Counted from the first letter of the stretch, positions 1 to 9,755 are shown. The stretch is DNA of 9,785 bases from a bacterium (GCA_030603495.1 JAUVXR010000051.1:1-9785), one strand, 5' to 3'. Translations and numbers: made by a program. Notes: a model not told the origin generated them from the sequence alone.

Positions 1-542
1 ACACCAGCTACGAACACGTCTATCTCCCCGCCCGTGTCCCGCCAGATCTCTTCGGCAGTAGTCTCCTGGTGGATGCGGGGATTAGCCGGGTTTTTGAACT
101 GCTGGAGCATAAAAGCGTCAGGAGTCTGCGTCACCAGCTCCTCGGCTTTGCGTACTGCCTCAGTCATTCCCCCCTCGGCAGAGGTGAGCACTGTCTCAGC
201 TCCATACGCCTCCAGCAGCCGCCGTCGCTCTATGCTCATAGTCTCGGGCATAGTCAGCACCAGAGAGTATCCGCGAGCTGCGGCTATCATCGCCAGGCCG
301 ATGCCTGTATTGCCACTGGTCGGCTCTACGATCGTTGTTTTCCCCGGCTCGATCAGACCCTCGCGCTCGGCGGCGTCTATCATTGCCAGACAGATCCGGT
401 CCTTGACACTGCCGCCCGGGTTGAAGGCCTCGAGCTTAGCCAGAACAGTCGCCTCGACGCCGCCAGTCACCGCCCGCAGACGAACAAGCGGCGTGTTTCC
501 GATCAGTCGGTCTATGCTTTCGGCAATTCTCGGCTGAGACAT
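1..542 (-). CDS. cysK: Cysteine synthase (O-acetylserine sulfhydrylase), N-terminal 180 codons
   Basis: PLP-dependent cytoplasmic enzyme that makes cysteine from O-acetylserine and sulfide. The visible part begins [20 protein letters not shown], the usual family opening. It contains the PLP-lysine motif NPGGSVKDR (Lys47) and the substrate loop TSGNTG at about residues 75-80. It breaks off inside DVFVAG, just before the glycine-rich phosphate loop, so roughly the last 120 residues of a normal protein of about 300 residues lie outside the window. The ATG at 542 is preceded by GAGAGGAG about 10 nt upstream. The gene follows a long leader with a consensus promoter and a structured element. The fold-type II PLP family also includes cystathionine beta-synthase and O-phosphoserine sulfhydrylase, but the opening motifs fit CysK/CysM best. 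Its product cysteine could supply the sulfur-transfer enzymes encoded upstream; that link is inference. Confidence 0.95.
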
Positions 543-885: not shown

Positions 886-914
886 ATCATAGCACATCGC
901 ACGAATTATGTCAA
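886..914 (-). promoter_or_regulatory. Consensus sigma-70 promoter for the cysK leader
   Basis: The minus strand reads TTGACA (909-914), a 17-nt spacer, then TATGAT (886-891). This is a near-perfect promoter with a predicted start near 879. It precedes the structured leader element and points at cysK. Confidence 0.8.
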
Positions 915-1010: not shown

Positions 1011-1832
1011 TCACGCAAGCACCGGGGCCGTGGTCGCGGTACGGGACTCTGTGAGTAAGCCTATGGCTACCTGGGCAGCCTTTCTACCTGATTCGAGCAT
1101 GCCGCCAAAGGTCGGTCCCATCCGAGGCAGCCCATAGGTGGTAGCTACAGCCATGCCGCAGACTATCACGCCCGGGTATGCCACGCCAGTCCTTGCGACC
1201 ACTTCGTCTTCGGAGCGGCCTACGTCCATGGCACCGTAACCGGGCAATTCCACCAGACCACGTTCCTCCAGTTTCCTCATCACACACGCGTCGTGGCCCG
1301 TAGCATCTATAACCAACTCCGCCTCAATGGCCACTGGATCCACACAGGTAATCTGGCGGGGCAACGCCTCCACCGGCGTCCAGTTAATCACCGCGCCGTT
1401 GACTCTGCCGGGCTGTTGGGTCACGACATCTTCAAACGATGTCATATTGACCACAAACACTCCGGCATCGCAGGCTGCGGCGATCAGCTTCGAGCAGGCG
1501 TGTGGTCCGTCGGCTGTGCATAGGCCCTCGGTTACCTCCTGGTATGGGATACCGAGGTCTTCCAGAATAAGATGCGCCGGCTTGCGAATCGTCACCTTAT
1601 TCATCAAGTAGCCGCCTATCCAAAAGCCGCCGCCCAGATAGTTATTGCGCTCGACTATAACAACTTTGCGGCCGGCATCAGCCAATTCCTTCCCGGCCAT
1701 CAGGCCGCTGGGCCCGGCGCCAACAATAATGACATCGCTCTCGACATAGTCATCGAACTGACGCGTGAACCCCTGGATAATGGCCCGCGTTACGTCCTTC
1801 TCGCGCACTGGGCTAAAGGTAATGCTGTCCAA
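1011..1832 (-). CDS. thi4: Thi4-family thiazole synthase (ADP-thiazole synthase) with cysteine at the sulfur-donor position
   Basis: Makes the thiazole half of thiamine from NAD and glycine, in the cytoplasm. The 273-residue protein opens with a typical Thi4 N-terminus (REKDVTRAI), then the dinucleotide-binding loop VGAGPSGL (37-44). Next come [13 protein letters not shown] (67-79), INWTPVE (149-155), IDATGHDA (175-182) and the C-terminal [17 protein letters not shown] (237-253). Cys163, in TCVDP, aligns with the position that is the sacrificial cysteine of yeast Thi4 (Cys205) and histidine in archaeal sulfide-using enzymes. Single-turnover chemistry is therefore possible. The start is TTG at 1832, preceded by a perfect AGGAGG (1843-1848) with a 10-nt gap; no in-frame ATG fits better. 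It has its own promoter at 1951-1979. No TPP riboswitch core is visible in its roughly 110-nt leader. Family assignment is firm; sulfur source is inferred. Confidence 0.92.
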
Positions 1833-1950: not shown

Positions 1951-1979
1951 AGTATAACTGGCGAGTGCGGCTATGTCAA
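1951..1979 (-). promoter_or_regulatory. Consensus sigma-70 promoter for thi4
   Basis: The minus strand reads TTGACA (1974-1979), 17 nt, then TATACT (1951-1956), with a predicted start near 1944. The resulting leader of about 110 nt has a short hairpin (GCTCT-GAAC-AGAGC) and a tandem GTTCTG repeat (plus-strand sense) at 1851-1866, but no known riboswitch. Confidence 0.8.
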
Positions 1980-2210: not shown

Positions 2211-2969
2211 TCAACTCTCGGTCAGTCCAATAATACCACCATCGTAGCGTTCGGTGGTCTGCTTGCCAGGCGGCACGATCAGAAAGTCCTGCTCAGGCCA
2301 TGGACCGCCCAACAATGCCCGCAGCAGCCGGTCGCTGCCCGCTATCTCTACGTACTGCCAGCCGCGCAACTCTGCCATTTCACAAGTGAAGCGCCGGTAG
2401 GCGGGGATATCCCCGACACCCTCGTTGATGAATGCGGCGCGGTCGTAGTGCTGCTCCCAGGTCGACTCGACCTCCATGAGATACCGCGCGTTATCCTCCC
2501 CGTACTTCTGCACGTACTCTTCGAAGCGCGCCCGGTGGGCCGCCTCCTGCCGCGAGCGCATCATACTCTCTTCCTCTTCCTGGTAGCTCTCCTTGTCTTC
2601 GATCCACCCGCAAGTATAGTAGTACGTCCCGGGATGCTGGGTGAATTCTTCCTGATACCGCTCCCTGGAGCCTAAGAAAAAGGTGATGCAGTCGTGCGCA
2701 CGGGGTATGATCAGCGGGACGTCGCGCGCAACAATCCCTGCCAGCCCGTTGCTGCATATTCCGTAGGCCAGCAGAATGTAGTCGAAACCCGCCTCGGTCG
2801 CGTCTATTGCCCTTTGGACCTCTTCGTGAAGTTTTTCGGGTTTCTCATGCAGGCCGACCTCAAGAGTCTGCACTTCGACTTCATGTTCTGCGCGAGGCCC
2901 GCCAGCCTCGGCCAGGAGCGCCTCGACCTCCATCCTGACAACTTCACAAGCTATGACCTTAAGTCGCAT
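2211..2969 (-). CDS. DUF1638 family protein, last gene of the sulfur-transfer operon
   Basis: A 252-residue protein of a family of unknown function, found mainly in methanogens and strict anaerobes. Visible family hallmarks are ACEV near the N-terminus (Cys8), LLAYGICSNG (66-75, Cys72), PRAHDCITFFLGS (89-101, Cys94) and YYTCGW (117-122, Cys120). The middle (about 125-175) is highly charged and probably helical. No signal peptide or membrane segment is seen, so it should be cytoplasmic. Conserved cysteines next to His/Asp suggest metal or thiol chemistry, but the reaction is not known. I chose the ATG at 2969 because the protein then begins MRLKVIACEV, the usual family start. That start overlaps the end of larE by 11 nt, which implies translational coupling. 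AAGG lies about 9 nt upstream. An in-frame start at 3002 would add 11 unlikely residues. Confidence 0.85.
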   Translation of the reverse strand: MRLKVIACEVVRMEVEALLAEAGGPRAEHEVEVQTLEVGLHEKPEKLHEEVQRAIDATEAGFDYILLAYGICSNGLAGIVARDVPLIIPRAHDCITFFLGSRERYQEEFTQHPGTYYYTCGWIEDKESYQEEEESMMRSRQEAAHRARFEEYVQKYGEDNARYLMEVESTWEQHYDRAAFINEGVGDIPAYRRFTCEMAELRGWQYVEIAGSDRLLRALLGGPWPEQDFLIVPPGKQTTERYDGGIIGLTES

Positions 2970-3816
2970 GTCTGGGGCCTTGACTCTGGGCCTGTTCGGC
3001 AACAGTGTTGGACAACACCTCGTTCATACTCCCTGAGCGGTACCCGTGCAGGTCAACTGTGACGTAGGTAAATCCTGCTGCCCGCAGCTTATCCACTATC
3101 TGAGTGCGCTGAGGTTCCTGGAGCAGGTGGGACAGCTCCTCGGCCGGGAGCTCGATTCGGGCAACCTGTCCATGGTGACGCACGCGAAATTGCCGGAAGC
3201 CCATCTGTCGCAAGGCCTGTTCGGCCACCGCCACCTGCTGGAGTTTGGACGCGGTAATACGGTCGCCATAGGGAAACCGTGAGGCCAGACAGGCCATGGC
3301 CGGTTTGTCCCAGGTCTCCAGGCCCCATTCCTCGGATATAGCCCGGATGTCGTCCTTGGTTAGGCCAGCTTCTATTAACGGTGCTCGCACACTCAGCTCG
3401 TCGGCAGCCCGAAATCCGGGGCGATGGTCAGAAAGGTCGTCCATCTGGGCAGCATGGACTACCCACGCCAGCCCCTCCTGTTGTGCAATCTGCTGCAGTT
3501 TGCCGAACAGCTCCTTCTTGCAGTAGTAGCATCGGTCGGGCGGGTTGTCGGCAAAGTTAGGGGCGGTAAGTTCGTCGCTTTGAAATATAATATGGCGTAC
3601 CCCGAGCTGCTTTGCTATGGTGCGAGCCTGCTCCAGCTCTTCCTCAGGATATAGTTCTGACTGAGCTGTGGCGGCTACCGCCTTCCCACCCACGGCCTCA
3701 ACCGCAGCGGCCAGCAGAAAACTACTATCCACTCCTCCCGAAAAGGCCACCAGCACGCTGCCCATTTCCTTGAGGGCCTTGCTCAATTTCCCCACCTTTG
3801 CGTTCCTGTCGTTCAC
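2959..3816 (-). CDS. larE: LarE-type ATP-dependent sacrificial sulfur transferase
   Basis: PP-loop enzyme that adenylates a substrate and then inserts sulfur. In the lactate racemase pathway LarE thiolates the LarB-made pyridinium precursor of the nickel-pincer cofactor, giving up its own cysteine sulfur. The 285-residue protein has the PP-loop FSGGVDSS (25-32), the RCYYCK motif (95-100) and KPAMACLASRFPYG (171-184). Cys176 has the same number and motif as the sacrificial cysteine of Lactobacillus plantarum LarE. Some other LarE proteins instead hold a [4Fe-4S] cluster for catalytic sulfur transfer; the sequence alone does not settle which applies. The GTG start at 3816 overlaps the upstream TGA (GTGA), with GAAAGG just before it. 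No larA, larB or larC is in the window, so the acceptor may not be the lactate racemase cofactor. Other PP-loop sulfurtransferases are less likely given the motif set. Confidence 0.88.
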   Translation of the reverse strand: MNDRNAKVGKLSKALKEMGSVLVAFSGGVDSSFLLAAAVEAVGGKAVAATAQSELYPEEELEQARTIAKQLGVRHIIFQSDELTAPNFADNPPDRCYYCKKELFGKLQQIAQQEGLAWVVHAAQMDDLSDHRPGFRAADELSVRAPLIEAGLTKDDIRAISEEWGLETWDKPAMACLASRFPYGDRITASKLQQVAVAEQALRQMGFRQFRVRHHGQVARIELPAEELSHLLQEPQRTQIVDKLRAAGFTYVTVDLHGYRSGSMNEVLSNTVAEQAQSQGPRHAT

Positions 3817-4484
3817 AGACTACCTTTCCTCTCAGGTGCTTCGACTTGTGCCACCACGGCAGATAGATGTGCTGGCTTGCAACTGCCGATACCTCTACAG
3901 TCAGTACCAGGCTCGTCGCACGGATCCTTCACGGGGCATAGGGGGTCCGACTCATTGAGAATGGATATATTTCGGCAACCATGCTTGCGCAAAAGCTCGA
4001 CACACTTCGCCGCATCGGAGGCTGCCATTGTGGACGTCTGCGCACCTGCAGACTGGCAACCAGTAAGAGGAGGTTGCAGTGCTGCCACTAGGCCTCCGGG
4101 CCGGACACAGCGAACCAGGCTCTGGACGACGGCATCCAGCATTCGAGTAGTGGGAACAAGGCCCAGGACAGCTATGTCAAAGGTCCCATCCGCGGCGGCA
4201 ATCTCACCGTTGTCTGTGATGGGCACGTGTACAGCATGAAAACCTGCCTGGGTCGGTGAGACTATTAACTGCCTTAGCTGCTCCCAGGACCAACAGCAGG
4301 GATCATAGAAACGGCGGCTACGCTCAGGGTCTGCTGCCACCAGCCCGCAAATTGACTGCGATGCGGCTAAATCAGCGGCGCCACAACACAACCCGCATCC
4401 GCCAGGGCAACTCCATTGAGTGGCACACGCCGGTCCTGATCGGGCCCTGCCAACAGCACCGGGGCATGTCTCTTTCAATTCCAC
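3813..4484 (-). CDS. Very cysteine-rich protein with a divergent class I methyltransferase-like core
   Basis: I do not recognise a named family. The 223-residue product has 17 cysteines (about 8%). They include CPGGCGLCC (26-34), CC at 63-64, and a C-terminal cluster with Cys183, 189, 196 and 202. The spacing resembles a class I SAM methyltransferase: GLCCGAADLA (31-40) in place of the glycine-rich motif I, GLVAADPERS (47-56) as the acidic strand, ADGTFDIAVLGL (98-109) as motif IV, and CVRPGGLVAAL (126-136) as the post-IV motif. The motif I glycines are partly replaced by cysteine, so SAM binding is uncertain; a metal, Fe-S or sulfur-carrying role is possible. The proposed GTG start at 4484 overlaps the mnmA stop by 10 nt, with only GGGAG/GAGAA upstream, and a TTG at 4478 is an alternative. 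Its TGA overlaps the larE start. Its position between two sulfur-transfer genes suggests a shared pathway. Confidence 0.7.
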   Translation of the reverse strand: MELKETCPGAVGRARSGPACATQWSCPGGCGLCCGAADLAASQSICGLVAADPERSRRFYDPCCWSWEQLRQLIVSPTQAGFHAVHVPITDNGEIAAADGTFDIAVLGLVPTTRMLDAVVQSLVRCVRPGGLVAALQPPLTGCQSAGAQTSTMAASDAAKCVELLRKHGCRNISILNESDPLCPVKDPCDEPGTDCRGIGSCKPAHLSAVVAQVEAPERKGSL

Positions 4485-5554
4485 GCTTTCTCGATCACTC
4501 CCCCGGCCACCACCACATCACCCTGATAGAGGACCAGGGACTGGCCAGGCGTCAAGGTGTTCGAGTTGTTCGGCAAATGCACGCGCGCAGTGCTATCGGA
4601 TATCATTGTCAGCGACCCAGACGTGGGCGCTGACCGATAACGGACTTCGGCCTCGCCTTCCACGGACTGGCCGGTGCGCGGCGCAGCCAAACCAACCCAA
4701 TTGACATCTCTGAGCACACACCAATGGCGCGGCAGCTCTTCCCTGGGTCCTACTGTCACTGTGTTGTTTCCTGGATCCAAGTCGATCACGTAAAGTGCCT
4801 GTAGAGAGTTTACCCCCAGACCACAGCGTTGCCCCACTGTGTAGTTGTGCAAACCATCGTGATGACCGATTGTCCGGCCCGTCTGATCATATATTAGTCC
4901 GGGGCTCGGCTCAATGCGCTCGATGAGAAAGTCTCGATAGTTGCCATCGGGAACAAAGCACAAGTCCTGGCTTTCGGGGGTTTCCGCAGCTGGCAGACTA
5001 TGTTGGTGAGCGAGTTTCCGGACCTCCTTCTTGGTAAGCCTCCCCAAAGGGAACAGTGCATGAGAAAGCTGGTCCTGGGTTAGACCATACAACGCATAGG
5101 ACTGGTCTTTAGTGCCGTCAGCCCCCCGCAACAGGGACACTCGGCCATTGCTGTGCTGACAGACTGCATAGTGTCCGGTGGCTACATACTCAACTCCGCA
5201 CGCTGTCATTAGTAGCCGGAGTAGAGCGCCGAATTTCACCTTTTCATTGCATCGCAGGCACGGATTAGGGGTTCTGCCGTTGGCATAGGCCTCACGGAAA
5301 TCCCGGACAACATCCTGCTCAAACTCCCTTACAAAGTTAAGGGTATAGTGGGGAATGCCCAGGTGGTGGCAAGTAGTCCGAGCCCGGTATATTGCCTCGC
5401 GTGAACAGCACCCTGTCTGCGGATACTCTCGGGCACAACCCGCCTCGATCAACTTCATTGTCACACCGATGACCTGATGGCCCTCTTGAGTTAGCAGCCA
5501 GGCAGCTACTGAAGAGTCAACTCCGCCACTCATTGCCACGGCTATGCGATTCAT
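4475..5554 (-). CDS. mnmA: tRNA-specific 2-thiouridylase MnmA
   Basis: Adds sulfur to U34 of the tRNAs for Lys, Glu and Gln in the cytoplasm, after ATP activation of the uridine. The 359-residue protein starts MNRIAVAMSGGVDSSVAAWL, with the PP-loop at 9-15. It carries NPCLRCNEKVKFG (97-109), ATGHYA (125-130), KDQSYALYGL (149-158), the catalytic SQDLCF (195-200), GQRCGLG (241-247) and the C-terminal barrel with AEVRYRSAP (302-310). Cys99, Cys102 and Cys199 are all present. This CXXC-plus-Cys arrangement is compatible with [4Fe-4S] cluster-dependent thiolation as well as the persulfide route. Length is normal. I chose the ATG at 5554, with AAGGGAAG just upstream; it begins 8 nt after the regulator's stop. 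Longer in-frame starts run into the regulator gene. An additional GCAREYPQTGCCS segment (39-51) makes the N-domain unusually cysteine-rich. Confidence 0.95.
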   Translation of the reverse strand: MNRIAVAMSGGVDSSVAAWLLTQEGHQVIGVTMKLIEAGCAREYPQTGCCSREAIYRARTTCHHLGIPHYTLNFVREFEQDVVRDFREAYANGRTPNPCLRCNEKVKFGALLRLLMTACGVEYVATGHYAVCQHSNGRVSLLRGADGTKDQSYALYGLTQDQLSHALFPLGRLTKKEVRKLAHQHSLPAAETPESQDLCFVPDGNYRDFLIERIEPSPGLIYDQTGRTIGHHDGLHNYTVGQRCGLGVNSLQALYVIDLDPGNNTVTVGPREELPRHWCVLRDVNWVGLAAPRTGQSVEGEAEVRYRSAPTSGSLTMISDSTARVHLPNNSNTLTPGQSLVLYQGDVVVAGGVIEKAWN

Positions 5555-5562
5555 AACTTCCC

Positions 5563-5988
5563 TTATTGCGTATCCCTCTCGGTGGCAATGCGATAGATCT
5601 GACAAGTAGAGCAGTTGGGAAACCGGCCCTGTTGCTTGGCAACCTCCCAACATTGCTTGCCGGGTGACTCAGTAACGGGGCAATCTGTCCGGAGGTTTTC
5701 CGGACAATTCTTCAATTGCCAGCACGCGGGCAGTGATATAAGACGGCCGATCTCGTCTATATCATAGCCTTCTTCATTTATGAATTCGCGAATGCGGGCG
5801 AGCCAGCAAACATCGTTGAAACTGTACAGGCGCTGATTGTTCTTGCGTTTGGGTCGAACCAGTCCCCTCTCCTCGTAGATTCTCACCATTCTTACACACA
5901 CGCCTAGCAGCTCGGCCACAGCCCCAATGCGCATCACTGGTTTGTCCATGTCAGGCGCATATTGATTTGCTACAGCACACAGTGTCAT
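5563..5988 (-). CDS. MerR-family regulator with C-terminal two-CW cysteine domain
   Basis: A 141-residue DNA-binding regulator, probably controlling its own operon. A MerR helix-turn-helix runs from MRIGAVAELLGVCVRMVRIYEERGLV (about 19-44), followed by the wing segment RPKRKNNQRLYSFNDV (45-60), then a helix (REFINEEGYDIDEIGRLI, 67-84). The C-terminal 55 residues hold CWQLKNC (89-95), DCP (102-104), CWEV (113-116) and CSTCQIY (126-132). This pattern of two Cys-Trp pairs with further cysteines resembles the so-called two-CW domain and could bind metal or an Fe-S cluster or sense redox state. The ligand is unknown. The ATG at 5988 is chosen because GGAGGT (5995-6000) sits 6 nt upstream; a longer frame from 6042 runs through this site. 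mnmA starts 8 nt after the stop. Transcribed divergently from the marR-arsM operon. Confidence 0.85.
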   Translation of the reverse strand: MTLCAVANQYAPDMDKPVMRIGAVAELLGVCVRMVRIYEERGLVRPKRKNNQRLYSFNDVCWLARIREFINEEGYDIDEIGRLISLPACWQLKNCPENLRTDCPVTESPGKQCWEVAKQQGRFPNCSTCQIYRIATERDTQ

Positions 5989-5994
5989 GATACT

Positions 5995-6000
5995 ACCTCC
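5995..6000 (-). promoter_or_regulatory. Shine-Dalgarno GGAGGT deciding the MerR start
   Basis: GGAGGT on the minus strand, 6 nt before the ATG at 5986-5988. It rules in this start over the in-frame ATGs at 6042 and 5949. Confidence 0.8.
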
Positions 6001-6049
6001 CGCGAAACAGCAGTGCCACACCGAAGCGATTCCCGACTTCAAACGCTAG

Positions 6050-6075
6050 ACTGGCCGACATCAGTGCGGGCCAGT
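6050..6075. promoter_or_regulatory. Inverted repeat at the start of the merR-mnmA transcript
   Basis: ACTGGCC (6050-6056) and GGCCAGT (6069-6075) are perfect 7-bp arms separated by 12 nt. They lie at about the predicted +1 of the minus-strand promoter. They could be an operator or a 5' hairpin in the mRNA; the sequence cannot tell which. Confidence 0.4.
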
Positions 6076-6082
6076 TATATAT

Positions 6083-6111
6083 ATTCTATAATTCCGCCTG
6101 CCATTTGTAAA
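6083..6111 (-). promoter_or_regulatory. Promoter for the merR-mnmA-larE-DUF1638 operon
   Basis: The minus strand reads TTTACA (6106-6111), a 17-nt spacer, then TAGAAT (6083-6088), in an AT-rich stretch. Overlapping TATATA sequences nearby would also allow a longer spacer of the kind MerR activators use. Confidence 0.6.
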
Positions 6112-6259: not shown

Positions 6260-6763
6260 ATGAGGGCAACTACACTTGGCGAAGCCAAGGTTGGTGGCGC
6301 CCTGCTTCTTAGACTGGTACGCTCGCTGGGCATTGTGGAGAACAGCGAGATGAGATGTTGCGGAGTCACCACCGGGCAGGGCCTCGCCCTGCTCGCTCTG
6401 AAGACAGCGGAGCCGCTAGCGATGCGTCACGTGACAGAGGCGCTCGGCGTTTCCGCGGGGACGGCTACGCGTGTTATTGACAACTTGGTGCGGGATGGCC
6501 TGGCCGAGAGGACGACAAACCCAGCCGACCGGCGCAACGTCTGCGTGCGGCCAACGGTGCGGGGTGAGGAGAAGGTCAAAGAGCTCGAAGAATGCTACCA
6601 GCGTTCCTGGAACAGCGTCTTCGGAGCTATTCCAAAGAAGCGGCTGCCAGAGGTCATCTCTACACTTGAGCTGCTGGTTGACGCTGTCGAGATGACAAGA
6701 GAAAAGTGCTGTGCTACCAACCAAACAGCCCGTGCGCAAGCAACGGAGGGAGTAAGGGCATGA
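6260..6763 (+). CDS. MarR-family transcriptional regulator, first gene of the ars-like operon
   Basis: A 167-residue winged-helix regulator, probably dimeric and autoregulatory. Dimerisation helices lie at about 8-30, the core wHTH at about 42-105 with the recognition region GVSAGTATRVIDNLVRDGL (63-81), and the wing AERTTNPADRRNVCVRPT (82-99). The C-terminal helix follows at 105-150. Cysteines occur at 33-34, 95, 112 and 150-151. The two CC pairs in the N- and C-terminal dimerisation arms could form a soft-metal site, so arsenite or a thiol oxidant is a reasonable guess for the inducer; this is inference. The ATG at 6260 has GAGGAG about 8 nt upstream. The stop overlaps the arsM start (ATGA), which implies translational coupling. 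Arsenic operons more often use ArsR, which makes MarR here somewhat unusual. Confidence 0.88.
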   Translation: MRATTLGEAKVGGALLLRLVRSLGIVENSEMRCCGVTTGQGLALLALKTAEPLAMRHVTEALGVSAGTATRVIDNLVRDGLAERTTNPADRRNVCVRPTVRGEEKVKELEECYQRSWNSVFGAIPKKRLPEVISTLELLVDAVEMTREKCCATNQTARAQATEGVRA

Positions 6764-7671
6764 GTTGGATAAAGAAGTTGGTCAGGAGAATCGTCGGCGG
6801 GGGAAGCTGCTGTTTAGACACCGGCGCGACCTGTTGTCCGCAGACAGACCCGGGTGAGGTCATCAAGGAGGCGGTCAAGAAGAACTACGCCGAGCTGATC
6901 ACAACAGCGGGCACCGGCTGCTGCGGCTCCACCGGGACCATTGAACAATTGGCAGGCTACACTGACGAGCAACTCGAAGGGCTTCCTGACGGGGTGCGAG
7001 AGACCACCTTCGCATGCGGCAACCCCGTCGCATTCGCCGAGATGAAGGAGGGCGAAGTGGTTCTCGACATCGGCTCAGGAGCCGGGCTTGACGCGCTCCT
7101 GGCCACAAAGAAAGTCGGCCCGAACGGAAAGGTCATAGGGCTTGACATGACGCCAGAGATGATTGAAGCTGCCCGCGCCAATGCCAGGCGTACTGGGGTG
7201 GAGAACGTCGAGTTCCGCCGGGGGGACGCTGAACAGATGCCGGTAGAGGACGACTCATGCGACTGGATCATATCAAACTGTGTCATCAACCTTGCCCCGA
7301 ACAAGCGCAAGGTCTTCGGCGAGGCGTACCGTGTCCTGAGGCCCGGTGGAAAACTGATGGTCTCAGATATCGTGACGCACGGGTTGCCCGCCGAGATTCG
7401 GCAGGATATGGCCGCGTGGGCCGGATGCATCGGTGGTGCTCCCGAGGAGCAAGAGTACTTGGAAACGATCCGGGCCGCCGGATTCCGGCAGGTCGAGATA
7501 GCGGAGAAGCTGACATATGACGAGGACACAATCAGGGGCATGAGTGGCGAGTGCTGCTCGCCCGAGGGCGCTAGCGATGTCGCTTTGGCACTCGCGGAAC
7601 GCGCCCCCCAGCTAGCCGGACGCGTAAGCTCGGTGCGGATCTCAGCCGTGAAACCGTCGCGAGAGGAGTGA
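6760..7671 (+). CDS. arsM: Arsenite S-adenosylmethionine methyltransferase ArsM
   Basis: Cytoplasmic enzyme that methylates trivalent arsenic using SAM, giving methylarsenicals. The 303-residue product has motif I VVLDIGSGAGLDALLA (100-115), the acidic strand VIGLDMTPEMI (125-135), GDAEQMP (155-161) and RVLRPGGKLMVSDI (191-204). The three arsenite-binding cysteines are present: Cys86 in FACGNP, Cys174 in SNCVINL and Cys223 in WAGCIGG. These match Cys72, 174 and 224 of the algal ArsM by motif. Extra cysteine pairs occur at 17-18, 25-26 and 54-55 in an N-terminal extension, and GECCSP lies at 263-268. They may help deliver or hold arsenic. The ATG at 6760 overlaps the marR stop and follows GGAGG. 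A longer in-frame start at 6706 lies inside marR and is unlikely. The UbiE/COQ5-type fold is shared with many methyltransferases, but the cysteine triad is specific. Confidence 0.93.
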   Translation: MSWIKKLVRRIVGGGSCCLDTGATCCPQTDPGEVIKEAVKKNYAELITTAGTGCCGSTGTIEQLAGYTDEQLEGLPDGVRETTFACGNPVAFAEMKEGEVVLDIGSGAGLDALLATKKVGPNGKVIGLDMTPEMIEAARANARRTGVENVEFRRGDAEQMPVEDDSCDWIISNCVINLAPNKRKVFGEAYRVLRPGGKLMVSDIVTHGLPAEIRQDMAAWAGCIGGAPEEQEYLETIRAAGFRQVEIAEKLTYDEDTIRGMSGECCSPEGASDVALALAERAPQLAGRVSSVRISAVKPSREE

Positions 7672-7678
7672 GACGACC

Positions 7679-8266
7679 TTGCAAAAGGTGAAAGTGGCAG
7701 TTTTGGCCAGCGTGCTATTGGTAGCAGTAGGGCTTACGGTGCGTTCTTCTCTCTTGAGCGGGGCCCCTTCGGAAGGTGCCCCAACCCAACAATTCGCTGC
7801 TGCCCCACGAACAGACGGCACAGATGCTGCTCCAACGAGCTCTGCCGGGAGCGAACAACCACACGAGGCCTCCCCGGTGGTGTGCGGCACAGCCTTGAAT
7901 TCTCTGTCGGCTCTCAATGAGGTCGCTGCCGACCAGGATGCCGTGTTCATCCTCCTGCCCGGCAAGAGCCAGGATGCGGCAGAGCAAGCTAGCGGGCAAG
8001 TTGAAGAAGCGCTGAAGAAGATTTCGGCAGGAGGCGCACGAGTTGCGGCCTTCACCCTGCAGGACGAGGCACCCGAACGGGCCCAGCTGATCGAAGCCCT
8101 CTCAATCGAGACGCTTCCCAGCATCGTTGTTATGGGCCGGGGTTCTGGTGTGGCGGAAGTGTCGGGCGAGATCACCGAGGGCAGACTACTTGGGGCGTAT
8201 GTTCAGGCATCGACGCCGTCTTCTTGCGGAGTGACACCTGGTGCATCGTCCGGCTGCTGCCCGTAG
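7679..8266 (+). CDS. Exported thioredoxin-fold protein lacking CXXC, in ars operon
   Basis: A 195-residue protein. An N-terminal hydrophobic segment (about 5-21, after a short basic start) acts as signal peptide or membrane anchor. A low-complexity Ala/Ser/Pro/Thr linker follows (about 28-66), then a thioredoxin-like domain (about 67-178). The domain has a strand DAVFILLPGK (87-96), an amphipathic helix (98-116), a strand VAAFTLQD (122-129) and TLPSIVVMG (145-153) with a likely cis-proline at 147. Where thioredoxins have CXXC there is PGKSQD. Cysteines are instead at 69, just before the domain, and at 183 and 193-194 in the tail. It probably works outside the membrane with the next gene's CcdA-like protein; ArsE/ArsF-type partners of ArsG are the closest known idea, though not confirmed. 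The TTG start at 7679 has AGAGGAG (7662-7668) 10 nt upstream, lying over the end of arsM. Confidence 0.75.
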   Translation: MQKVKVAVLASVLLVAVGLTVRSSLLSGAPSEGAPTQQFAAAPRTDGTDAAPTSSAGSEQPHEASPVVCGTALNSLSALNEVAADQDAVFILLPGKSQDAAEQASGQVEEALKKISAGGARVAAFTLQDEAPERAQLIEALSIETLPSIVVMGRGSGVAEVSGEITEGRLLGAYVQASTPSSCGVTPGASSGCCP

Positions 8267-8281
8267 GCGAGGACTGCGAAG

Positions 8282-8977
8282 ATGCAGGAATGGATCAGAC
8301 AGACCGTGGAGTCGTCCCAGGTTACGATCGTTGTCTTGCCCGTCTTCTCACTTGTTGGCATGCTCGCAGCAGTGACTTCCTGCTGCAACATCGCCGCGCT
8401 TGGCGCGATTGCCGGATACTCTGCCTCCCGCGAGGATGCCGACCGCCGCACCACACTGTTTGCCGGGCTTTTCTTCATGGTCGGGACCATTATTGCCCTT
8501 GTCGTTCTTGGCGCCGTGGCTGGTTTCATCAGTCAGGTCGCGGGCACGATGATGGGAAGATACTGGCAGATCTTCGCGGGCGTAGCCGCGATCCTCTTGG
8601 GTCTTGCGGCACTCAACCTGCTGCCGTTTAGACTACCCACCCTGCCTTCCAAGGAGCGGGCCAGGCCCGCCGCAGGGCTGCTTAGCGCGGCCGTGTTTGG
8701 CCTGGTGGTCGGGGGGGCCGCGACTGGCTGCTCGGTGGGCTGTAGTCCTTTGCTCCCCGTAGCTCTGGGAGTCGCCGTTTTGCAGGGCCACACGTTGTGG
8801 GGAGCAGCGATCCTGGGCGCCTTTGCGATCGGGTACAGTTTACCGCTGACGGCTATTCTCATGGGATTGTCTTTGGGGAAGTCGGGTCTGAAGACGAACA
8901 AAGTGGCCACAGTTGTTAGAATCTCAGGCGGCATAGTCCTTATGGGAGTTGGCTTTTACCTCTTGGCTACAGTCTAA
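8282..8977 (+). CDS. CcdA/DsbD-like six-helix membrane protein, ArsG-type
   Basis: A 231-residue integral membrane protein with about six hydrophobic helices: roughly 15-46, 58-85, 95-115, 130-168, 172-196 and 208-230. It has the CcdA layout of two three-helix repeats, each with cysteine near its first helix: TSCCNIAALGAIAGY (32-46, Cys34-35) and ATGCSVGCSPLLPV (147-160, Cys150 and 154). CcdA/DsbD proteins carry thiol electrons across the membrane to exported thioredoxin-like partners. ArsG relatives are linked to efflux of reduced aromatic arsenicals. The first motif lacks the classic SPC-P pattern, so the exact subfamily is uncertain. It starts 15 nt after the thioredoxin-like gene, with GCGAGGA about 9 nt before the ATG. 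Neighbouring arsM and the thioredoxin-fold gene favour an arsenic-related thiol or efflux role over cytochrome c maturation. Confidence 0.85.
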   Translation: MQEWIRQTVESSQVTIVVLPVFSLVGMLAAVTSCCNIAALGAIAGYSASREDADRRTTLFAGLFFMVGTIIALVVLGAVAGFISQVAGTMMGRYWQIFAGVAAILLGLAALNLLPFRLPTLPSKERARPAAGLLSAAVFGLVVGGAATGCSVGCSPLLPVALGVAVLQGHTLWGAAILGAFAIGYSLPLTAILMGLSLGKSGLKTNKVATVVRISGGIVLMGVGFYLLATV

Positions 8978-8989
8978 CAGAGAACAAGC

Positions 8990-9250
8990 ATGGAACGCAG
9001 CCCGACAGCCAACGATGTGAGAACACTGATGGAGCGGCTCAGGCAGTCGGTACACAAAGAAGAATGCTGGTCCTGCGATTGCCTGCAGGGATTTCTCACG
9101 CAGCTCGAGATGGATGCCGCCCAGGATGTGACAAGCCTGACGGCCTCGCTCAAGGTCATGCAGGACGAGATGCACGGATGCCTGGGCTGTTGCCCCTGCC
9201 CGCCGGGCGCGCTTTTCGCGGAGTACATTCGTCCCCAGGCGAACCCATGA
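8990..9250 (+). CDS. Small cysteine-rich protein, last gene of the ars-like operon
   Basis: An 86-residue protein with seven cysteines in two clusters, CWSCDC (26-31) and CLGCCPC (64-70), separated by a predicted helix (LQGFLTQLEMDAAQDVTSLT, about 32-51, and on to about 62). Each cluster ends a helical stretch, so the protein may fold as a helical hairpin bringing the clusters together around zinc, an Fe-S cluster or arsenic. There is no signal peptide or membrane segment. I do not recognise a named family. The ATG at 8990 lies 12 nt after the upstream stop with only a weak purine-rich AGAGAA before it, so translation may depend on coupling. Coding quality is supported by ordered cysteine spacing and operon position. 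A metallochaperone or arsenic-binding accessory role is inference. Confidence 0.72.
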   Translation: MERSPTANDVRTLMERLRQSVHKEECWSCDCLQGFLTQLEMDAAQDVTSLTASLKVMQDEMHGCLGCCPCPPGALFAEYIRPQANP

Positions 9251-9365
9251 CGTGAACGACCAGGAAACGGCATAGCGAAGCTCGCCTTTCGTCAGAATAT
9301 GTTGCACTGTGGATAGTACTCTGCGTCATTCTGGGCATCCCTTTCGGCAGCGCAGCGCCCGGCGA
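9251..9365 (+). other. Gap after the ars-like operon
   Basis: About 115 nt without a convincing gene or promoter. A short GCGA-AGC-TCGC hairpin (9275-9285) followed by CTTTC is at most a weak terminator. The frame ending at TAG 9379-9381 encodes a hydrophobic stretch (WIVLCVILGIPFGSAAPG) that looks like a signal peptide but has no start codon. Confidence 0.4.
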
Positions 9366-9755
9366 ATGTGTGTGGTAGAGTCAACAGCGCCCTATTTGTA
9401 CGACACCCCTCCGGAATCTATCAAGCGCTTTCGCCGCCAGATCCGCATGATAGACCTGCTAAACGAAGGTGATGCGAAACTGGTGCAGGATGCCGTTTGG
9501 TCGTGCTACCAGGAGGAGCCTACCCGGTTCAAGGAGTACGAACTATTCGACCCGGGTGCCTTCCGCGCTGAGCCTATCTGTGCGACTATCACCTGGAAGG
9601 TACGCCAGCCGTGGTATGCCCCGCGCAACACCCAAGAGCAGGCGGCGCTTGACAGAGCTCATGCCCTTATGGAAGAGATACGTCGCAAGACGGCCCAGAA
9701 AAGAGACCCCTCGTCCGCAGGCACCGAAGACGACACTAGGAGTTTAGAACGTTGA
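9366..9755 (+). CDS. Unrecognised small protein
   Basis: From the ATG at 9366 the product is 129 residues; a GTG at 9309 would give 148, and an ATG at 9447 would give 102. None has a good ribosome binding site, so the start is unsettled. The sequence is hydrophilic and mixed helical, with a basic patch (IKRFRRQIRM) and then IDLLNEGDAKLVQDAVWSCY. A more strand-like segment follows around ICATITWKVRQPWYAP, then a charged helical tail (ALDRAHALMEEIRRKTAQKR). It has few cysteines, unlike its neighbours. No membrane segment or known motif is seen. It is on the same strand as the ars-like operon but 115 nt away or more, so it may be a separate unit. Length and amino-acid composition favour a real gene, but I cannot assign a function. 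Confidence 0.5.
   Translation: MCVVESTAPYLYDTPPESIKRFRRQIRMIDLLNEGDAKLVQDAVWSCYQEEPTRFKEYELFDPGAFRAEPICATITWKVRQPWYAPRNTQEQAALDRAHALMEEIRRKTAQKRDPSSAGTEDDTRSLER

Follow-up and report, generated by a model that had tools for sequence, protein, structure and literature searches.

The five tightly packed genes for a MerR-type regulator with two CW motifs, MnmA, an orphan protein with 17 cysteines, LarE and DUF1638 make up the leading part of a longer island for sulfur assimilation. That they form the first transcription unit of an island controlled by the two-CW MerR, operating by the mechanism proposed below, is the explanation we favour and consider reasonably probable. The strongest result in its support is the linkage of this regulator to sulfur genes in every one of its seven carriers. 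The parts of the island are known; their combination is new.

The window, by which we mean the whole 9,785-nucleotide stretch analysed, is one complete contig of a 2.67-Mb genome (G000) and ends within cysK. Its source is an uncultured, probably anaerobic bacterium of the Armatimonadota. The class Candidatus Zipacnadia consists mostly of fermentative anaerobic sediment bacteria, for which anaerobic sulfite reductase (Asr) and sulfide production have been predicted (PMC10290634). The features on the minus strand are as follows.

6083..6111, minus strand: predicted promoter of the five-gene operon, TTTACA-17-TAGAAT (10/12 matches)
5563..5988, minus strand: MerR regulator; most likely start ATG 5988, preceded by GGAGG and kept in G005
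4475..5554, minus strand: MnmA; most likely start ATG 5554, after an 8-nt gap from the MerR gene
3813..4484, minus strand: orphan protein of 223 aa; most likely start GTG 4484, overlapping the MnmA gene by 10 nt
2959..3816, minus strand: LarE; most likely start GTG 3816, overlapping the orphan gene by 4 nt
2211..2969, minus strand: DUF1638 (PF07796); most likely start ATG 2969, overlapping the LarE gene by 11 nt
1951..1979, minus strand: predicted Thi4 promoter, TTGACA-17-TATACT, kept in G006
1011..1832, minus strand: Thi4 thiazole synthase of the Cys type (ITCVDP)
886..914, minus strand: promoter-like site before cysK, TTGACA-17-TATGAT, its -35 region kept in G006
3..542, minus strand: cysteine synthase CysK, incomplete at the contig edge

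A first-pass annotation of this DNA had described five genes on one strand behind one promoter, separated by an 8-nt gap or overlaps of up to 11 nt. All five reading frames were indeed found on the minus strand at that place, with measured spacings of +8, -10, -4 and -11 nt, behind a single promoter-like site (6111-6083) whose -35 and -10 regions are kept before the MerR gene in four genomes (G000, G003, G005 and G006). The proposed identities were likewise borne out by family models (those for MnmA, LarE and DUF1638 above cut-off), by the motifs ACWQLKNCP and QCWEVAK in the regulator and by a count of exactly 17 cysteines in the 223 residues of the orphan. The annotation's description of three proteins as cysteine-rich suits DUF1638 poorly, as it has only five cysteines. 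The customary contexts of larE and mnmA are absent, as had been noted: larB and larC are not adjacent, larC lying on another contig, and the operon mnmA is away from iscS. The same five-gene order occurs on a 46-kb contig of an independent MAG (G006), and an assembly chimera is thereby excluded. The orphan gene begins with ATG in G006 and G003 where G000 has GTG. Between G000 and G006, dN/dS (NG86) was 0.18 for MnmA, 0.36 for the orphan, 0.15 for LarE, 0.16 for DUF1638 and 0.13 for Thi4, and values so well below 1 mark the orphan gene as encoding a real, constrained protein. On the plus strand, a divergent operon (6260-8977) encodes MarR, the arsenite methyltransferase ArsM, a small protein resembling thioredoxin and a membrane protein resembling DsbD. 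Two short ORFs come next, at 8990-9755; the second has a match to NF002126 (E 4e-11) that falls short of the curated cut-off and resembles MtrA, the corrinoid subunit of the methyltransferase of methanogens.

Downstream of the operon, Thi4 and then CysK continue on the same strand, each behind its own conserved promoter-like site; they are thus probably separate transcription units. In G006 the series runs further, as MerR-MnmA-orphan-LarE-DUF1638-Thi4-CysK-DUF39-NIL/ferredoxin. G000 itself has two near-identical DUF39-NIL/ferredoxin pairs, L142 (contig C22) and L141 (C56), both at contig ends, and one of them probably continues the window's cysK across a junction absent from the assembly. DUF39 and the NIL/ferredoxin protein together transfer sulfur to aspartate semialdehyde, which yields homocysteine (PMC5764234). 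The gene order is therefore not unique to one genome, being complete in G006 and partial in G003, but its spread is narrow, with the complete MerR-MnmA-orphan-LarE-DUF1638 order in two of the seven genus genomes and LarE, MnmA and DUF1638 located elsewhere in most relatives.

The regulator is constant in its company. It matches MerR_1 with 63.9 bits and has an N-terminal winged HTH, and its C-terminal segment holds the two CW motifs and six cysteines; against the NCBIfam metal and redox sensor models all scores fell far below cut-off, and a literature search for two-CW domains returned nothing. Found at high identity in seven of 61 genomes (G000, G003, G005, G006, G027, G030 and G032), it adjoins Thi4, DUF39 or CysK in all seven. 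By a crude estimate, such adjacency would arise by chance with a probability of about 5e-7 when the three lineages alone are counted. Beyond G000 and G006, the arrangements are:

G003: MerR-MnmA-truncated orphan-CysK-DUF39
G005 (L118): MerR, remnants of the mnmA and orphan genes, Thi4
G027: MerR-Thi4-DUF39-NIL/ferredoxin
G030: MerR-Thi4, with DUF39, NIL/ferredoxin and CysK a few kb off
G032: MerR-orphan-Thi4-DUF39

The Thi4 of G005 lacks its N-terminal part and its gene runs into other sequence, by deletion or through an assembly join. In G006 the regulator (L114 11230-12100) has lost the HTH and one CW motif with the promoter retained directly upstream, so regulation is dispensable in that genome.

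A second grouping, from another family of the phylum, offers the best evidence that the genes have been selected to stand together and are not the product of a rearrangement accident. In G058 (L171 4645-12014), NIL/ferredoxin-DUF39-CysK faces Rrf2-LarE-ThiF-Thi4-DUF6775-TtuA, and the jobs of the two islands match: sulfide to cysteine and homocysteine, thiazole, LarE and tRNA thiolation. DUF6775 is a metallopeptidase-like protein. In G053, LarE follows directly after Thi4.

In every MerR-linked Thi4 protein examined, Cys occupies the suicide position (RQITCVDP), and the Cys in the window's protein aligns with the plant active-site Cys; the Thi4 of G004, a genome without the two-CW MerR, has His instead (HVDP). 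With Cys in this position, Thi4 is predicted to spend its own cysteine sulfur. The NCBIfam name 'sulfide-dependent' is, judging from the motif, probably wrong for the window's Thi4, and the reading of a sulfide-dependent (non-Cys) THI4 taken from that name was dropped since the active-site Cys is present. A scan of the window and its relatives with Rfam matched no family, and there is thus no known TPP switch before Thi4.

The operon MnmA (NF001138, 411 bits against a cut-off of 284) has the P-loop SGGVDSS and the full CC-CxxC-C set (C49, C50, C99, C102, C199) that defines the C type (PMC11784392); the CC part is missing from the canonical enzyme of the genus. C-type MnmA is reported to be Fe-S dependent, and the matter is disputed for the D type of E. 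coli (PMC11784392). The operon type is limited to G000, G006 and G003, and reads GQRCG where most others read GQRKG, GQRHG or GQRRG. In the MnmA tree it stands alone on a long branch, separate from the canonical genus enzymes, a split with support of only 86/87. A search of viral contigs for it gave no match. G000 has two MnmA, the operon copy and one beside an IscS/NifS gene on contig C40. The operon copy is the sole MnmA of G006, where the iscS locus is intact and the start of mnmA survives there as a VMRAVMIAMSGGV-type stub followed by unrelated sequence; in that genome the operon MnmA has replaced the iscS-linked one. This replacement indicates that it most likely thiolates tRNA U34 as usual (s2U34). 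Both G000 and G006 retain IscS, which could supply persulfide to MnmA and LarE.

A similar exchange took place for LarE (TIGR00268, 345 bits against a cut-off of 150), which contains SGGXDS and a CXXC-C set (C96, C99, C176). This gene is single-copy in nearly every genome, and the operon copy is the only one in G000 and G006. Other genus members have an intact larE beside pgi, and G000 retains a remnant upstream of pgi covering residues of about 136-157 and 224-272 (tblastn E 8e-11); no remnant was found at the pgi locus of G006. The operon LarE has thus replaced the resident copy in both genomes. The LarE tree did not separate a moved genus gene from one acquired from outside as its origin. 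Both genomes have LarC and LarA (on C21 and C14, respectively, in G000), which makes the customary nickel-pincer cofactor the most likely client of LarE. In the Thermotoga enzyme, the CXXC-C cysteines bind a [4Fe-4S] cluster, and an extra sulfide bound to the cluster has been proposed as the sulfur donor (PMC9283937).

DUF1638 (PF07796, 151.8 bits against a cut-off of 27) is a stand-alone protein and the sole copy in G000, and has the residues invariant across 25 relatives (C8, C72, H92, D93, C94). Its closest relatives outside the genus, among those compared, are stand-alone genes of G041 (57%) and G050 (51%), both from outside the order, which suggests import. Relatives within the order commonly have a fusion protein of about 930 aa that combines DUF1638 with a hydantoinase-type ATPase (L128 3691-6477, L066, L067, L072, L080, L088); in G012 the gene for a fusion has nearby what, by eye, reads as a gene for a DHPS-like methyltransferase. 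The predicted structure (pLDDT 87.9) had no PDB match below E 0.03, its best VIA score (Z 8.1, to an asparaginase-like fold) was within background, and the neighbourhoods of stand-alone DUF1638 genes gave no guidance. Methionine synthesis in Phaeobacter inhibens requires a DUF1638 gene, which probably acts in B12 reactivation (PMC5764234), and by analogy such a role would fit an island that makes homocysteine.

The orphan protein matched nothing in Pfam or NCBIfam. A scan of genome contigs, with hits made by one short pattern, found it in three relatives only; it is clear in four of the 46 genomes of the class, counting the truncated copy of G003, and a fifth match in the class (E 5e-4) was taken as chance. 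In its predicted structure (mean pLDDT 58.8, core 70-88, residues 1-42 unresolved) strands and helices follow each other, from the second strand onward, as in a class-I methyltransferase. Its closest structural neighbours are methyltransferases and anamorsin's methyltransferase-like domain, which is SAM-less (best Foldseek E 2.6e-4; VIA Z 8.8, rmsd 4.9 over 131 residues), with weak sequence similarity, and an invariant GCGLCCG stands at the place expected for the glycine-rich SAM loop. The protein looks like a putative, degenerate class-I methyltransferase-like fold, which we offer as a lead and not as proof.

In the mechanism that we propose, sulfide would be turned into cysteine by CysK and into homocysteine by DUF39 with the NIL/ferredoxin protein, DUF1638 would support methionine synthesis by B12 reactivation, and Thi4 would supply the thiamin thiazole. 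Two ATP-dependent PP-loop sulfur insertases, MnmA for s2U34 of tRNA and LarE for the nickel-pincer nucleotide, would come under the same control. Each may take up sulfide onto a [4Fe-4S] cluster bound by three of its cysteines, as shown for the cluster itself in Thermotoga LarE (PMC9283937), and with sulfide so loaded neither would need a dedicated IscS/Tus relay. The MerR protein may sense sulfur or redox state through its two-CW cysteines and switch the operon, and the orphan would be an accessory that binds metal or Fe-S and not an active SAM methyltransferase. The predicted chemistry of the Cys-type Thi4 counts against a uniformly sulfide-dependent version of this scheme, and the separate promoters of Thi4 and CysK count against taking their co-regulation with the five genes as given.

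The confinement of the complete order to two genomes speaks against our reading and for an operon formed by chance, in which housekeeping genes were rearranged behind a promoter, old copies happened to be lost and neither control nor biochemistry ties the genes to sulfur assimilation. The broken regulator of G006, the truncated orphan of G003 and the dispersal of LarE, MnmA and DUF1638 in most relatives point the same way. We nevertheless judge such an accident unlikely: by family, four of the five genes are connected with sulfur transfer, with the control of sulfur genes or with methionine synthesis, they share an island with further sulfur genes, the regulator keeps a sulfur context in three lineages, and LarE has Thi4 as a partner independently in G058 and G053, in the former along with DUF39, CysK and a tRNA thiolase. 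As for the sulfur-transfer or thiol-cofactor module envisaged in the first-pass annotation, coordination around sulfur is upheld by the adjoining Thi4, CysK, DUF39 and NIL/ferredoxin genes, by the MerR link in seven genomes and by the analogous island of a distant family. The thiol-cofactor half is not needed, because LarC and LarA are present and the operon MnmA took the place of the ordinary one in G006. A new thio-cofactor or tRNA thiolation pathway, with this second MnmA, LarE and the methyltransferase-like orphan working on a new acceptor, is accordingly very improbable, even though the orphan always lies beside the operon MnmA in the genus and that MnmA has its long branch and GQRCG motif; the enzyme keeps its catalytic and other family motifs as the sole MnmA of G006, LarE is the sole LarE of its genomes, and the orphan occurs with neither MnmA nor LarE beside it in G032.

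We consider a metal or arsenic stress operon, with MerR answering metal stress and the divergent MarR-ArsM operon as its partner, the least credible of these alternatives. In the window MerR does have ArsM as a divergent neighbour, and a gene that by eye looks like ArsM adjoins the DUF39-NIL/ferredoxin copy on C22 of G000; however, no ArsM was seen beside the island in G006, G003, G027, G030 or G032, and MerR scored above cut-off for no metal-sensor model. Doubtful, if conceivable, is a bolder form of the sulfur reading, a sulfide regulon bypassing the cysteine-desulfurase relay, in which a sulfur-sensing two-CW MerR would co-induce two [4Fe-4S] insertases using free sulfide, with the orphan as their dedicated Fe-S or sulfide carrier. 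If true, this regulon would couple tRNA thiolation and nickel-pincer cofactor synthesis directly to sulfide assimilation.

The sulfur-assimilation island that we favour bears on a disputed point, namely whether a bacterial MnmA works from sulfide on a [4Fe-4S] cluster (PMC11784392). In closely related genomes a full C-type enzyme, within a sulfide-assimilation island and beside LarE, accompanies the iscS-linked MnmA or has taken its place, and G000 (with both MnmA types) and G006 (with the operon type only) make a clean test pair. The two-CW MerR, DUF1638 and the 17-Cys protein gain a sulfur context, and two unlike islands in one phylum group LarE, Thi4, homocysteine synthesis and tRNA thiolation.

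Among known systems, the IscS-linked MnmA, such as the other copy in G000, belongs to the same enzyme family as that of the operon; the latter differs as a separate lineage of full C type that carries the CC motif and lies apart from iscS, and as the copy that took over in G006. The nickel-pincer operons of the larE-larB-larC type, apparently found in G050 of the same phylum, have the same LarE family. The LarE described here is of the CXXC-C type, like that of Thermotoga maritima (PMC9283937), and is tied to sulfur genes, with LarC and LarA elsewhere in the genome. The RamA/DUF1638 system that reactivates B12 for methionine synthase in Phaeobacter inhibens (PMC5764234) involves the same PF07796 family as the DUF1638 described here, which has the cysteines invariant in our alignment (C8, C72 and C94) and stands alone in a sulfur operon. 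The DUF39 (COG1900)/NIL-ferredoxin route to homocysteine of Desulfovibrio and Methanosarcina (PMC5764234) is represented by both proteins, adjacent in the island, present as two copies of the pair in G000 and joined by CysK in G006, G030 and G058. The difference is that here Thi4, LarE, a tRNA thiolase and DUF1638 accompany the pair, with a two-CW MerR at the front. The Rrf2-led island of G058 likewise gathers LarE, Thi4, CysK, DUF39, NIL/ferredoxin and a tRNA thiolase, within 8 kb; it has Rrf2 in place of MerR and TtuA in place of MnmA, adds ThiF, and is without DUF1638 and the orphan protein.
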